From contig NC_087082.1 of the NCBI RefSeq assembly GCF_026151205.1, positions 3,748,001-3,812,000 of the forward strand: DNA of 64,000 nucleotides. The letters run 5' to 3'. Numbering within the stretch: position 1 is the stretch's first letter; each line of letters starts with the position of its first letter. Positions 666 through 62,924 of this stretch are shown one piece after another. This stretch comes from Bolinopsis microptera. Lineage: Eukaryota; Ctenophora; Tentaculata; Lobata; Bolinopsidae. The notes under the pieces were generated by a model that saw only the letters and a program-made list of their open reading frames with translations, made no database searches and had not been told where the DNA came from. Both the position numbers and the translations under genes were made by a program.

Positions 666-1717
666 TTAAACGGGGACACCATATTTAGCAGTGTTGCTAT
701 AGTCGATTTGATCGTAAACTTTAATACTCTGAGGACGATTTCTGGTACCGGTGTTGTCATTCATACTGACTACCACGCTGGCACCGCTTTTAGTGCTCTT
801 CAAGCTGCCCCCACTCCTTAGGGAGGTGGAGGGGCTTCTGGTAGCGCTGTTGTTGGGGGAGACTCTAGTTGCGTTAGCATCAATGTTCGAGTCACAGTGG
901 GTGGAGTTGTCTGTTTGCGTGACCAGCTTGTAAGATTGTAGGTTAGGGGACATGAAAGATGGGGATTCGGCTGGGTCGCAGGCGAACCGTGCTACGTTTA
1001 TCGGCGGAGAGACAGCTTCCTTGAGGTTAACACCGCTGTCTGTAGGACTGCGGTCGTTATCAGGCGTGCTGGTTTGTACTGCGTCGTACTTCGTGGAGTG
1101 AGCTTCGAAGTTATTGGTGAAGCCGATAAAGCTGAGAAGTGTGGGTAGGAAGACGAGCGAGTGAAGTGCACCCAGGATAACGATACCCAGATACATCCTA
1201 AAGTAGAAGATCTCAAATATCTGAGATTTAGCGAAGGCCAGCACGACGATTCCAACAAACTTTGTAAGTGTGATCCCACTTAGAACGGACGGACCAGTCC
1301 TAACCAGAGCATCGTAACTTTTATCCATCCTCCGATAGCCTTAGACTTGGTGAAACTTTTAACAATATGCGAGGAGAACTCCACCGAGATTCCTACACTC
1401 ATAACCAGATTTACTAAACTAACAGCGTTCAGAGTTATACCCCACAGGTACATCAGACCGAACATGTCTGCTGTGATCATAGCCACGGTAATGGTGATGA
1501 TGAGAGCAGGTCCCAGGTTGAATCCGAGGAGGATGAAGGACATGATGAAGACGGACATGATGCAGAGGAGGAGGTTAACGATTGTTTCGTCCTGGATAGT
1601 GAGGTACTGTTCGTAGAAGAGGTAGAAAACAGAGTATGGGTACACTGTCATGTTACCAACTTGGGAGGACATTTCATCTGCAATGTCTAGTGCTCGTTTG
1701 TACGCTGTTATGAAGTC
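666..1717 (-). CDS. NPC1: NPC1 last exon, with a one-base frameshift at about 1329
   Basis: Starts in phase 0 after a CAG acceptor with [16 protein letters not shown] and continues through [16 protein letters not shown] and [13 protein letters not shown]. At 1328-1330 the frame breaks: the following [18 protein letters not shown] is in another frame. One extra base there would restore exactly the spacing found in human NPC1 between SFT and the AL of EEAL (15 residues). After the break the protein reads through [15 protein letters not shown], a membrane helix, and a long serine/threonine/asparagine-rich tail to a stop at 666-668. The tail is much longer than in vertebrates and lacks a final dileucine (it ends KYGVPV). 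The break may be an assembly or sequencing indel, a polymorphism or real inactivation. Confidence 0.88.
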
Positions 1718-4700
1718 CTGAAATGATATACATAAATTAGCTATGTAAGGAGTATCAAATTAAGTAGGTATATCACACATTTAAAAACATAAATCGAAAA
1801 AATGTTTTACAGATCATGACCTTAATGACCTCAATGAAACTTCTCGAAAGTCATTAAATCCAGCACATTTTTTTGAGTAAACTTACAGCAGATTTATGAA
1901 GGGGAGTGTGGTAAGCTTGGAAGTAAGCACTCTGTATAGCGACTGGTTGATCAGAATCTTTCTGCCTTCCGTACGCGAACTCCACAGCGTCAGCGTAGAG
2001 GGCGTGGCCTCCCTTCGCGCAGTATTCAGCGTTAGGGTTATCGTTCAGGAAGGAGGGCAGGTGCTGGAAAAATAGATTCGAGGGCGGCCTTTCACCATCT
2101 GAGGAAGTAGTCCGTGTGAAAATACACATAAGACATTTGTTAAATAAATATTATTATTTAGCGCAAATGGCACTAACCACGAATAAAACTCTGCCCATTA
2201 AACTTTAATAATAAATTTCTTCTAACTAACCTGATTTCTTGAGGCAAGGATAACACGTGCTAGTTCTGTCAGTAGAAGGACAGAAAGTACCGTTGAAGTA
2301 TATCCTGCAACATTCAAATGTTGGGTCTAACCATGAGAAGTAATCGTCCAGCCATGAGTTGGGAGGGGTAGCTGAAGTGATGGGATAAGGTTAGGATTAT
2401 ATCACCACTTCACCAGCATGTCGGATTACCGAGAATTCCATTAAAATATGAGGACTTGGCACTCCCTTAGCTAACAAGACAATCGAAATTAGAGTGATTC
2501 TAACAATAGGATAACTTACCAATAGTTGAGTAGTTGCTGATCGTAGACTGTCGCTTGAGGTAATTGAGAGCGCTGGTTGCGTTACAAGATCTCCCCATGC
2601 AAATCTCATCTTGCGCTGCTCGCTTTGGGAATCTCTGCCACGTGTCACCTACGAGTCAGAGTATAAATACGGAGCAAGTTTGTACATTAAACAACATCAA
2701 ATGAATTCATTAACAAATGCATTAAATAGGGTAACGTTGGGCCACATATTTTTAATAGAACAAAATTACCTTTGTTATGAAAGACGAAGTATACAGGGGG
2801 TCCCACTCTAAGCTGACTGAATATGTCACGGTAGTAATCTCCTAGATAACTGTCGTGGGGTAGAGCCACGGTCTGGTCTAATCCTATATCTATACGGTTC
2901 ATCATCCCGATACTTGCACAGGAGATGAAGATGAAGAACGCTACAACAGCCCCTCTCAGGCATTTTGAGGAGAACAGAGCAGGGGCCCAGTATTTCTCTA
3001 TAGCAACTGAAAATTGAAAAAGGGTTAGTTCCAAATGAAATACATAGTAGTTAAACTTTCATTGCCAATACACATCACTTAAATCAAAGAATTTAAGATT
3101 TGAATTTGTTTAAAATATAGAAGTTGGTTTAAATTGGAGATGTGCCTTAAACCAATAAGGACTCACCAGCGACAACACCCTTTTTGCTAGACTTGTTTTC
3201 TACTTCTTCATTTCTTAAGCAACAGAAACAGTCGTATCTTCCACTCAACTGTCGCTTCAAATCCCAAGTGATGACCTGTAATTGGGATTTGTTAATTACA
3301 TAACATATAGTGTTGAAATGTTCCTTCAAAGAAGGCTTGTACTTTAGCTAGTGATCATTAATACTTTATAAATACATTATAGATACATTATACATTATAT
3401 ACTTTACAAGGATGGTAAATGCGTTTTGGGGAGACTACGCGTAGGTACTACGCATACGTATTTCCCGATGATAAATTACGTATTTCAAATTAAGTTGCAG
3501 TAACGCGCGAAAATCTATATATAAATATTACATTACAGTATATGGAATCGTGGCCTAATTGGTTAATACGCTAGCTCCATATCAGCAGATTGCGAGTTCG
3601 AGACTCGGATAGGATAATTTTTTCCCATACTTTTTAGCAATTATGAATAACTAATGAATAACTAAAAATACCTCTGTAATATAACTAGCAAGGTGAAATG
3701 AAATCGTCATCCGGCCGAAAAATTTATTATAGCCGTTTTAAAAGTTTATTATAGCCGTTTTTTCTTTCCAGGCTGGATTCCTAGTCACTTTTTAAACTTA
3801 TGCCACTGGGAAGTCCGTGTTAATCCGGTAACCGGTTTCAAAATTCAAGCAAGAGAGACTTGTGATCTTAGTCTGCGAATATTGTAATAGATAAAAATGC
3901 ACTGGAACTGGGTCTCGGTTGAAAGTCTATTCCTCGAGGGAGGCATAACTGCTTTATAACCTGAGAAGCTCTGCTTTGCAGCAGACTGACTGATTGGTTG
4001 GTTCAGCATAAGAATAGCAAGTCGCTGCAGCGTTTTCATTCGAGCACCGTGAAGTCTCCAAAACGACTGTCAGTATTGCTATATTAATATACCACTGGGC
4101 CAGCGACGCACGCGCAAATATCACTAATCTGTAATCACGTATTTCGAAAGAGATACGCGCGTATTTTGAAAAATTTTACCATCAAAGAATTTAAGCGCCA
4201 AATTTTGCCGTATTTCACGTATTTCTTAGAATTTTTGAATACGGCGTATTTACAGGCGATTTTTTGACGTATTTACCATCGATGATACTTTATACATACA
4301 TTATAGAGGAAAGACTAGCAATTGTAATTTTCAGTATGATTCACATATTATTATAAGTGGGTAAAATGAGGAGAACTGACCGATAGGAAAGCAGTACACT
4401 GTAACAGGAAGTTTATAAAGACTGCAAGAGCTGCGTAGAGTGAGAAGTTCTTAACAGCCGGCATAGTGGAGAGAGCACCAAGAGAGAAGGCAACTGTTTC
4501 ACAGCACCCAGATAAGAGCATACTCGGTCCTATCCTGCCAAACACTATCGAGATCTGGACAAAGGAAGGGTTAGTCTTCTAAAGTATAAAGTTCAAAGAG
4601 TTCTAATTTTAAAAATATGTTTTCCAACTGTTTGCAAGAATGCTAAATTAAGATCAAAATAAAAACCAACCTGTTGAGGAACGTTAGATACAGATTTAGG

Positions 4701-59571: not shown

Positions 59572-61312
59572 TCAAACTCGTTGTAATAGACCAAAATCAT
59601 ATGTCATATGTAAGACCATGAAGATTATACTTTTCCGAGCCACCGTTGAGCCTGTATTGTTCTATGGCTGAGACCCATTGGATATCAGTTAGTTGCTGTC
59701 TGATAACTATAATAAGCGTATCAATGGCTGTTACAGTAGGCCCTCAACAGTTGAATACCATCCCCAATCCACAGTGATGATCAGTCGAAGCATAATGAAA
59801 CTATATAAGCCAAGTATTTAGCGAGACACAATGATGAACTGGCCGATCAAGCACTTTTTGGGATTCCCAGCATGAAATAACAACACCTGTTTCAAAAAAG
59901 TTAAAGTTAAAGATTAAACTTACCGTTGCCTAATTCTGAGAACATGGAACGCACACGTGCAAATATGATTTTACGCGCGAATTACCCAGAAACTGAAACT
60001 TAATGCTGAAAGAGAATCTAATCACTATGACTAATTGCGTCGCGCGGGGAATAATTTTGGTCACGTACATCATTTTGTGTTTCCTTTTAAATACAATTAC
60101 CAGTGCAGAGAGTGGTTTCAGAAACGCAAATTCAACTTGCAAAGATGAATTTACCTGGGAACGGTACCTCGCTCAGGCTTTTGTATTTATTAAGTTAAAC
60201 ACATTGATTTAACATTGAACATATTATGGCGATTAAAAATATGCCTATAGCAGATAGGGCGGAATGACAGGTTCAGCAACGCCCAGGACTTACAAGCAGC
60301 AAATTCTGCTACTGCTAGTGCTATCACGGAGAATCAAAGCAAATATTATAGTGGTACCGTGGCATGTCCATTCTTGGTCAGCGTTGTATAGGTTGCATGG
60401 ATAAGTCCCTGCTTGCTGTTGGCGTTGCTGCGGTGAGGCTAGCTGGAACAATTGTCGTAGAACTTTTTGGCTTCGTACTCTCTTCACTTCTTTCTCCGCA
60501 CAAAACTGTTTAATCCGTGGGAGGCCCTGTTATTCAAATAAAGTTCTAAACCCTCAATCAAGCGTTTAGTTCTAAAACTGGTTATATTATGAAAATTGTA
60601 GTTTTGTAGCTTTTCTCATAACTATCGTCCTATCGAACTGATGATCAATAAACATCACGCGGTTTGCTACAATCAAGTTAATATAAGGGGTCGTTTACGT
60701 ATCAGCAGAGGGGTCTTCCAAATTGCAAATGATTACGATTGACCAGATAATATTGTAATTTTGGCACAATAGCACAATACTCATAGCGATACCCGGATTT
60801 AACATTTAAACAATTTGTAATCGTATTGCCATGCAGTGTTTGTGTAACTGAAGATAGTAATCGCTTTTCTTGTCAAAAAGTTAATATTTATTTCCTTCGA
60901 TGGTAAATTATTTTGTCCTAACTTCATATATTTTCTAATAATATAAAATTGGTTTAGGACCAATACAATGTCAATAAGTCATGTGGCATGTAAGGCGCCA
61001 ACGACAAATTGCTAAAAGGCGCGGCGCAACTGCTGAAAACTGCCACTAACTGTCACTAACTGCCACTAACTGCCACTAACTGCCACTAACTGCCACTAAC
61101 TGCTACAAACTGCCACTAACTGCTGCAAACGGCGCGCACAGTGCGTGGGCGCGATTGTAGCAGTTAGTGGCAGTTAGTGGCAGTTAGTAGCAGTTAGTGG
61201 CAGTTAGTAGCAGTTAGTGGCAGTTTGTGGCAGTTAGTGGCAGTTAGTGGCAGTTAGTGGCAGTTAGTAGCAGTTAGTGGCAGTTTCTTTGCACTTAGCT
61301 CCTCCTGTGTTC
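59572..61312 (-). repeat. Inverted segmental duplication, copy B
   Basis: Reverse complement of copy A (43849-46190), with a shorter middle (about 90 bases between 60947 and 61035 where A has about 740). It ends at CACAGGAGGAGC (inverted, near 61300-61312), immediately beside the hammerhead-bounded unit. Confidence 0.75.
61038..61290. repeat. CTAACTGCCA decamer hairpin (copy B)
   Basis: Forward decamers at about 61038-61130, a GC-rich spacer with GTGCGTGGGCGCGATT, then thirteen or so inverted decamers to 61290. Counterpart of 43873-44088, with different unit counts in the two arms. Confidence 0.92.
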
Positions 61313-61365
61313 AAGCTTCCTGAACATACGTGAGATCAGAACTAAGAAAGCATATATATTTTATA

Positions 61366-61413
61366 TATCCATAGACACAGTGTTTCGTCCTATTAGGACT
61401 CATCAGTAGGGCT
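61366..61413 (-). ncRNA. Hammerhead ribozyme motif B (type I)
   Basis: Core CTGATGA at 61406-61400, identical stem II and loop, GAAA at 61386-61383, then a very short stem III (ACA/TGT with a 3-nt loop) and a GTC cleavage triplet ending at 61374. Stem I has one mismatch in five pairs (CCCTA with TATGG). All core bases are present. The tiny stem III is typical of retroelement hammerheads, which often cleave as dimers. Confidence 0.9.
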
Positions 61414-61445
61414 CAAATCATCAGGGTTGATTTTTGCTGATGGCG

Positions 61446-61499
61446 GGAATCGAACCAGCAATCTTACGACTGCTGGCCCGGGACAATGCCACTGCACCA
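61446..61499 (-). promoter_or_regulatory. Internal Pol III promoter (A and B boxes) of the hammerhead unit
   Basis: TGGTGCAGTGG and GGTTCGATTCC are spaced 32 bases apart on the minus strand inside a tRNA-like segment that begins GGGCTTGGTGG (from 61507). Both boxes match the tRNA consensus closely. Confidence 0.8.
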
Positions 61500-61642
61500 C
61501 CAAGCCCTTAATGATGAGGGAAAGAAATAGGTACCAGAGTGCTCTACAGACTCATTACGAGTTAGGAGCTTTGCGTTTAAGCTAAGCGGTAGATCTATTC
61601 ATTCCCCAGAGTGCTCAAGCTTAGTAAACTAGACGAGCATAT

Positions 61643-61692
61643 TTATCCATAGAGACAGTGTTTCGTCCTATTAGGACTCATCAGTATGGCTT
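61643..61692 (-). ncRNA. Hammerhead ribozyme motif A (type I)
   Basis: Core CTGATGA at 61684-61678, stem II GTCCT-AAT-AGGAC with its closing bases, then GAAA at 61664-61661. Stem I pairs perfectly over five bases (CCATA with TATGG). The cleavage triplet reads CTC instead of the usual GTC, and stem III is disrupted by the same change, so self-cleavage of this copy is doubtful. Confidence 0.85.
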
Positions 61693-61724
61693 ATCTTAAA
61701 CAATAATCTCAGAATGTGTGTTTT

Positions 61725-61890
61725 CTGTCTGTGTGCGTGTAATTTCCGAGCGGCTTAATCAAGAAAACGGTAAGAGTTACGGGGCTGGTTTTTTCGGTAT
61801 AGTGCCGACAAAACTATGAGAAAGCCAAAGGCAAATGGTAAAGGTTTTTTTAAATCGGTCGGTGGCATGGTAAGTGGATTAATTTATGGT
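61725..61890. repeat. Dispersed repeat, AATTTCCGAGCGG family, copy 2
   Basis: Second copy of the sequence at 37755-37930, same orientation, with scattered substitutions and a few indels. It lies just right of the hammerhead element. Confidence 0.8.
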
Positions 61891-62724
61891 TTTGTACCAC
61901 AAATGTTACATAAATATCTCACATTTTCTCCCTCCTCGCTCGCTCTCCCATTACTGCATATGTAGCTGAATAAGTAGCGTTGGTACATAAATCATAATTG
62001 GGTTATCCGGGTAAGATTCGCTGTCATGTTATACTATAAGCGTATTAGGGGAGTTGTTCATATCCTGTTTGGACCGCAGAGAGAGTTCATACTTTCATAC
62101 GACAATGTTAATGTTATGCGTGTTTTCAAATATTATAATACTATTATATTTGAACCGCTTTCCATTTTTTATTTAAATCGTTTTAGAAATTAACCCTTGT
62201 TAACTCCGCACCACACCCGCCTATTATTATACACTTGTATTACACTAGTATATAATACAAGTGTATAATACACTAGTATATAATCAATAATACAATAGTA
62301 TATAGACACTTTGGCAGTCAATATTTGTAGCCTACATTCAAGTATCCGTAGATTTAACAGTATAACTATAATAGATACACCCCGGCCGGCCCAGCGCGTG
62401 GGGACACGTTTTTGCTAGTAGTAGTATAGTTGTCGTTTCAAGCATCGTTAATCTCATCATCCTAGGATAATCGTGTGTCGCACAGCACTTCATTCAGTAG
62501 CGTCAGCGAGAGTAGTCGCCTGTTTGCTATAAAATGACGTGTACGTTTCGGTCACCTATATATAGTGTGGAAAAAGGGAGTGAGATATAAAAAGTCTGAG
62601 CTGAGAGAAACCTGTTGGATAAAAGCCTTTCAGGTACATGTACTTAGCACGCCTAATATAATAAAAACGGTTATCACGTGCGCCAAACACCACTATGGGA
62701 TGCAATACAAGTTGTAGGTTTATA
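61891..62724. other. No gene recognised
   Basis: AT-rich sequence. A small AGTATATAATACA-type tandem/inverted repeat at about 62233-62305 is the only structure seen. Confidence 0.45.
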
Positions 62725-62924
62725 TTAATTTACCTCTACCACTACCAGGACGCGCGCCGTACAGAGTTGGACTCGTCGACGAAACAAATATTTTACGAGT
62801 ACAAATATTTTACGAAACAAATATTTTAAGAGTATCACTATCACCCGGCGGCCCGCACCCGTTAAAATACAAGTAAAACGATTACATTGCAGGTCAGAGG
62901 CACATATTAGGTGCGATGGGTGCG

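Follow-up and report, generated by a model that had tools for sequence, protein, structure and literature searches.

A probable SINE-like hammerhead retrozyme family in the ctenophore Bolinopsis microptera and its suggested Penelope-like partner

A 64,000-nt stretch of DNA of the ctenophore Bolinopsis microptera (NC_087082.1, positions 3,748,001 to 3,812,000; hereafter the window) contains two hammerhead ribozyme motifs arranged head to tail. Ctenophores are possibly sister to all other animals. A sequence-only reading of the window had taken the two motifs to be the borders of a 278-nt retrozyme-like unit. The locus raises the question of what this unit is, how its copies are inserted and which template and enzyme serve their spread. 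The explanation that we consider probable is that of a SINE-like animal retrozyme, the circular or multimeric RNA of which would be copied by the reverse transcriptase of a Penelope-like element, with an internal start at TA repeats. On this view, and with the same confidence, the window copy would be a dimer truncated at its 5' end that belongs to a family of SINE-like non-LTR retrozymes.

The window copy and its hammerheads

Both motifs were found on the minus strand with identical cores, CTGATGA-GTCCTAATAGGAC-GAAA, and the identical loop II and 278-nt distance between predicted cleavage sites that had been claimed for them (Table 1). They are contained in a 52-nt direct repeat that is 94% identical and has the same spacing. 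The description of their differences was also accurate. Motif B has a GTC site, a 3-bp stem III (A-U, C-G, A-U; loop CUG) and a weak stem I (GCCCTA against TATGG), whereas motif A has a good stem I, a CTC site and a C.C clash in stem III. The covariance-model check that had been proposed for the pair turned out well for motif B only, which exceeds the cut-off of 34 bits of Rfam model RF00163. Motif A reached no Rfam cut-off, its best listed match being to the type III model RF00008 (30.1 bits against a cut-off of 48.5). A plant-type LTR retrozyme was rejected on this score, type I (RF00163) being the model that applies instead.

Table 1. Features of the retrozyme copy and its surroundings, in window coordinates
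Feature	Position	Strand	Basis or remark
Whole retrozyme insertion	61366..61691	minus	alignment to sister copies and common 3' junction
Insertion termini	5' end AGCCATACTG at 61691; 3' end TATGGATA at 61366	minus	3' end followed by TA-rich flank
Hammerhead motif A	61645..61690	minus	predicted C17 at 61652; CUC site; stem III damaged
Hammerhead motif B	61367..61412	minus	predicted C17 at 61374; GUC site; RF00163 35.6 bits
278-nt unit from one predicted cut site to the other; predicted to be a circular or linear monomer	61374..61651	minus	GC 46%; without TTTT
A-box-like TGGTGCAGTGG (type 2 RNA polymerase III promoter)	61489..61499	minus	pattern scan against shuffles
B-box-like GGTTCGATTCC	61446..61456	minus	32 nt after the A box
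Duplicated segment (insertion and flanks)	61310..62894		second copy close to the start of this chromosome (L044)

The GTCTC of motif A is one change away from the GTGTC of most sister copies, one stem III pair being lost, and it recurs at one other place among the core matches of the genome (C4:2030972). This damage may leave the window copy poor at releasing a monomer. The window copy shares 1,606 bp at 95% identity with locus L044 (C11:24700-28200), which indicates one insertion duplicated together with its flanks. Because L044 keeps GTGTC and is free of the motif A defect, the loss in stem III probably came after this duplication.

A stem III of only 3 bp suggests that a hammerhead may be helped by its neighbour. 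In one calculation, two ACACUGUGU strands paired at -7.5 kcal/mol against 0 for a single strand, which fits the dimeric action published for amphibian and Penelope-like hammerheads (PMC7229834, PMC7761336). An isolated single hammerhead was not the energy minimum in the folding program (-6.7 vs -11.7), in which the double hammerhead, a pseudoknot, is not scorable. Selection against TTTT in the 278-nt unit was considered and rejected, since its absence is not significant: 29.6% of shuffles lack TTTT likewise and 3 of 30 units contain it.

Two other features of the window were recorded separately. A palindrome with arms of about 106 nt made of a 10-bp repeat (CCACTAACTG) adjoins the retrozyme at 61028-61286 and may be MITE-like or a foldback element; the matches to RF04141 and similar microRNA families near it arise from this palindromic repeat and stay below their cut-offs. 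At the other end of the window, an ORF at 666-1328 (minus strand) has relatives named Niemann-Pick C1.

A dispersed family with a fixed 3' end

The genome searched comprises 264.65 Mb in 232 contigs, of which 13 are large (15.2-26.2 Mb; 258.07 Mb in sum, or 97.5%). A first DNA search gave 72 matches. With a 33-nt core and at most 3 mismatches, 86 matches were obtained, 62 of them exact, against 0 for the reversed control, and core copies are present on all 13 large contigs and on C70. In parallel, at least 67 hammerheads exceeded the RF00163 cut-off, among 74 scored of 35,380 first-look candidates. A chance pair of motifs was ruled out by the 86 core matches against 0 in the control together with the genome-wide RF00163 matches. 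Copies are single or form arrays of up to 7 hammerheads, and spacing is mostly 277-278 nt in dimers and arrays alike (range 274 to 308 nt between neighbouring hammerheads in arrays), with a unit GC content of 45-46%. The retrozyme-like reading, which expected core and spacing to be kept among genome copies, is thus supported on both, as well as by motif B and by the 51 hammerheads of the first 36 sister loci (39 + 12) that pass RF00163.

Subsequent counts were made on 54 loci (36 + 18) that hold 76 of the 86 core places, or 77 with the window's two included; the remaining 9 core places were taken later and enter the junction count only, not the 5'-end, box or Penelope-like counts. With one unit per locus, and with the window copy and L025 left out, the two hammerhead regions diverge from the family consensus by 1.9% and 1.5%, and the sequence between them by 4.5% (14 loci). 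The array of L011 is made of two unit types in the order XXYYX, which are 95-96% alike between types and 98.8-100% within them, the Y units being nearer to L009 than to the X units. Copying of one monomeric circle is insufficient to give such a mixed array, which presupposes a jump between templates, a mixed multimer or recombination at a later stage. Two further disturbances of the hammerheads were seen. In L014, an element of about 3 kb with terminal inverted repeats (1407-4373) lies inside a hammerhead stem III and splits a retrozyme array. In L084, L086 and L087, TTGATCAG replaces CTGATGAG next to the same left flank, so that one core was broken identically in duplicated copies.

The 3' junctions are largely uniform. 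The alignment comprises 59 pieces, 52 of which stop 2-16 nt past the predicted cut site, nearly all with TATGGATA and then TA-rich sequence; since the alignments run on into TA letters, the true 3' end is at about position 8 past the cut site. A (TA)3 or longer run was present within 24 nt at 56 of 58 scorable terminal junctions, compared with 2.0% of random window positions. These 58 are the junctions that match a sequence pattern, L035, L036 and the first L014 piece being among those unscored. The count was 48 of 49 before the last 9 loci were added, and it is 51 of 53 without six duplicate loci and the second copy of L042; the duplicates L019/L085 and L084/L087 are still counted in the junction figures. 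By the junction score no TA run was present at L011 (ATGTATATGTATG) and L080 (ATAAATAAAAGCC), the exceptions among the 58. The unscorable L036 is exceptional as well: it stops at TCTA, followed by non-TA sequence.

The 5' ends are variable and range over unit positions 3-266 (n = 46). A TA or AT is found at the start in 17 of the 46, as read in the reference unit, against a background of 16.6% (P = 7e-4). The 46 ends are what is left of the 59 aligned pieces after 13 were excluded by hand, either as duplicates (L015, L025, L028, the second L042, L044, L050 and L057) or as broken or end-less pieces (the second L014, the minus piece of L023, L030, L031, L043 and L063).

A fixed 3' end combined with variable 5' ends is what reverse transcription leaves when it starts from one internal point and stops anywhere, and we infer from these junctions that insertion took place by reverse transcription. 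With this fixed 3' end, with 5' truncation and with copies on 13 large contigs and C70, the family consists of dispersed copies of a non-autonomous retroelement. The retrozyme flanks are mostly TA runs, from which target-site duplications are not distinguishable (the animal criterion being more than 4 bp when present). The position of the 3' end is also informative on the template: as it is past the cut site, a monomer cut there, which ends at C17, cannot be the template, and a circle or an uncut multimer can.

The same observations bear on the view that the family is plain satellite DNA, expanded by unequal exchange, with the hammerhead as a passenger and the TA runs as mere genomic context. 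Arrays do exist, L011 mixes unit types, and some copies have spread by segmental duplication, as for the window and L044 and for the further duplicates recognised by shared flanks (L010/L015/L028, L011/L025, the two L042 copies, L049/L050, L056/L057, L019/L085 and L084/L087). Nevertheless, exchange does not produce 5' truncation to various degrees together with a constant 3' end, and the presence of copies on 13 large contigs and C70 and of 56 out of 58 junctions in TA runs speaks against it too. Disfavoured by its junctions, a plain satellite is very improbable.

A few families of TA-run repeats recur as landing sites for both retrozymes and Penelope-like elements, some of them in both orientations (flanks of L010, L013, L017, L018, L021, L022, L037, L038, L041, L042, L073 and L075). 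In L059, a retrozyme and Penelope-like pieces lie head to head in one TA run, and in L032 two retrozymes lie tail to tail, each as two-sided priming might leave.

Polymerase III-like boxes, template and enzyme

A pattern scan was carried out with consensus strings that we take to represent the A and B boxes. The A-box-like and B-box-like sequences of the retrozyme form the only pair of an A and a strict B box within the 64-kb window, with 0 in 20 block shuffles. With relaxed patterns, 3 pairs were found in the window against 0.15 per shuffle, namely that of the retrozyme and two elsewhere; the latter, at 3550 and 40816 on the plus strand, are SINE candidates unrelated to the retrozyme. Among the first 36 loci, 20 contain the relaxed pattern (37 matches, two of them overlapping in L015), mostly with 32-34 nt between boxes, a distance comparable to that in tRNA genes, and many of the loci without it are truncated copies. 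The A box diverges by 4.5%, the B box by 9.5% and the interval between them by 10.6%, against 4.5% overall. The boxes are thus no better kept than the rest and retain only a relaxed pattern, so that selection on them is not supported by divergence. ARAGORN found 0 tRNA genes in the window and 36 loci, and Rfam gave no tRNA match at E<=10 in two units; a recognisable tRNA gene or tRNA head in the unit was rejected accordingly and the boxes are called polymerase III-like rather than a tRNA. A separate SINE or tRNA with the same box region was likewise rejected, all 23 matches being at retrozyme copies. Of the two hammerheads of the window copy, a single one is downstream of the boxes, so that a transcript started from that promoter could not release a monomer.

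These boxes open the way to another template, an uncut linear multimer made by polymerase III, for which the ribozyme would be dispensable in transposition and no circle would be needed. In agreement with this, 5 of the 46 5' ends, including those of the long arrays L016 and L021, lie 13-16 nt before the A box, at the expected point of transcription start. The mixture in L011 would fit transcription of a mixed parent array, and ribozyme mutants of a Penelope-like element were described as keeping their level of insertion in vitro (PMC11167929). However, the cluster of 5' ends is weak (1.5 expected in this 9-nt zone, which was set post hoc; P = 0.016 under a uniform expectation) and sits at an AT-rich spot (ATTATTAAGG). 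Moreover, the hammerheads diverge less than the remainder of the unit, and animal retrozymes are described as accumulating as circles (PMC7229834). A linear template is on balance unlikely, while being the most serious rival to the explanation that we prefer.

Concerning the enzyme, GIY-YIG gave at least 147 matches in the genome (150 of 524 candidates scored), many of which are in open frames of 800-1,043 aa. A complete copy, L076, has an 889-aa ORF with GIY-YIG (E 3.6e-7), in which RVT_1 was not detected even at E<=10, and distant relatives of this ORF bear RVT_1. These two domains, together with a tandem layout with a 3,564-bp unit, suggest that L076 is a Penelope-like element. Near the two ends of its unit, ACTTCTACGCAA at the start and TTGTGTAGAAGT at the end are almost exact reverse complements. 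The 3' end of the Penelope-like element runs into TA-rich repeats at 11 of 11 such loci, a count outside which stands a twelfth GIY-YIG locus, L064, that looks unrelated. All of the 40 3' UTR copies scored, among 295 first-look candidates, are at least 99% identical, which indicates that the element is young.

Penelope-like pieces are present in 11 of the 54 retrozyme loci (147.7 kb). The 295 copies in 264.65 Mb lead to an expectation of about 0.16, which is too low as older copies at about 80% identity may be outside the 295; the duplicated loci L015/L028 and L056/L057 also lower the independent count of 11. Neither a Penelope-like protein nor its 3' UTR was found in the window. This adjacency may reflect only a common preference for TA repeats. 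A fusion is seen in the L033/L078 chimera, where a retrozyme and a fragment of the Penelope-like ORF (unit nt 2411-2583) with the same orientation are joined without TA in between. The joint shows about 1 nt of microhomology, and the chimera is flanked on the right by the 3' UTR of another Penelope-like copy and on the left by 858 bp of unrecognised sequence. A joint of this kind would result if the reverse transcriptase had jumped from retrozyme RNA to Penelope-like mRNA, although a single case is no proof of such a jump. A hammerhead within the Penelope-like element was looked for and rejected, so that no ribozyme in common ties the element to the retrozyme: none was found in the tandem locus L076 (cmscan, E<=5), the sole hammerhead of L077 is that of its retrozyme, and a minimal-core scan of L064-L077, many of them partial, gave none.

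Mobilisation by a LINE or another non-Penelope reverse transcriptase also has to be weighed. It would find a precedent in Nematostella repeats with 15-bp LINE-like target duplications (PMC4918200), and the partner survey was confined to GIY-YIG elements. Against it stand the TA-run target, the tandem insertion and the type of 3' junction, all common to the retrozyme and the resident Penelope-like element, as well as the chimera. We regard such an enzyme as a clearly improbable one, less so than satellite exchange and more so than a linear template.

For the preferred Penelope-like partner, the following cycle can be proposed. Tandem copies would be transcribed, probably by RNA polymerase III from the A and B boxes inside each unit, and the type I hammerheads, whose cores are intact, would cut the multimer into 277-278-nt monomers. 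As suggested by published animal retrozymes, these would be circularised, probably by the host tRNA ligase RtcB. TA-repeat DNA would then be nicked by a Penelope-like reverse transcriptase with GIY-YIG endonuclease, which would begin cDNA synthesis at the internal sequence UAUGGAUA of the RNA, some 8 nt beyond the cut site. From there, synthesis would proceed backwards through the hammerhead and make one or more rounds of the unit. It would stop anywhere, often at a TA or AT step, to give 5'-truncated monomers, dimers or arrays. The junctions themselves are observed; the proposed identity of the enzyme draws on the common targets, the adjacency and the one chimera. A bolder version, to which we give somewhat less than an even chance, is that ctenophore retrozymes are true parasites of the Penelope-like element, whose enzyme would take the circular retrozyme RNA, prime on nicked TA repeats inside the opened 3' side of hammerhead stem I, some 8 nt beyond the cut site, and roll round the circle to produce tandem units, sometimes jumping onto its own mRNA.

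Place among known retrozymes

Animal non-LTR retrozymes are described as having type I hammerheads about 170-400 nt apart, in dimers to multimers, with a GC content below 50% and no LTR; their stem III is weak and may need dimers, and Penelope-like elements occur in the same genomes (PMC7229834, Cervera and de la Pena 2020). The Bolinopsis units agree with this in their 277-278 nt, GC content, intact type I core and tandem arrangement, as well as in a weak stem III, the lack of an LTR and a Penelope-like element in the genome. They differ in that their 3' end is fixed, beyond the cut site and within TA runs, and in their A- and B-like boxes. Plant LTR retrozymes have type III hammerheads in their LTRs, longer units (for example 600-979 nt), 4-bp target duplications and a Ty3-gypsy partner (PMC4918200, PMC7229834); two hammerheads that bound a unit and a circular RNA model are what the Bolinopsis family has in common with them. 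Judged by its sequence, the Bolinopsis microptera element is of the animal non-LTR type and not of the plant LTR type.

The Sm-alpha and Sj-alpha elements of schistosomes come close to it, being SINE-like with polymerase III boxes A and B and a type I hammerhead (PMC2770079, PMC2576457, PMC4918200). However, Sm-alpha is described with a tRNA-Gln-like sequence and more than 10,000 copies, whereas the Bolinopsis family has no recognised tRNA and 86 cores, and differs further in a TA-run target common with a Penelope-like element. In the case of Poseidon of Anolis, a Penelope-like element with a hammerhead, purified Penelope-like enzyme starts internally on its own RNA and prefers AT-rich DNA (PMC11167929). 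Tandem insertion, AT-rich targets and a reverse transcription start inside the RNA are thus common to Poseidon and the Bolinopsis retrozyme. Unlike Penelope-like elements, the 278-nt unit is too small for an RT/GIY-YIG ORF, which is in separate elements, and unlike Poseidon, the resident Penelope-like element is without a detected hammerhead.

Taken as a whole, the sequence evidence favours an animal retrozyme family that resembles Sm-alpha and whose clear insertion signature suggests a Penelope-like partner. The kind is a known one, the host group new as far as the literature searched shows, and the mechanistic evidence new. The main text of PMC7229834 makes no mention of ctenophores, and no earlier report of ctenophore hammerhead retrozymes was found in the literature searched, so that the family would extend retrozymes to this group. 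As regards the enzyme that copies animal retrozymes, Penelope-like elements were named in 2020 only as a strong candidate (PMC7229834). The small Bolinopsis family offers an insertion signature, adjacency and a chimera in common with a Penelope-like element as well as a precise start site. With regard to transcription, retrozymes were said to seem promoterless in a 2020 review (PMC7761336), and a promoter was later reported in a plant retrozyme (PMC9695139, PMC12029980). Polymerase III boxes are present in Sm-alpha and, as box-like sequences, in the Bolinopsis family. If the family is indeed a parasite of a Penelope-like element and is equipped with polymerase III boxes, it would represent a ribozyme-SINE in ctenophores.
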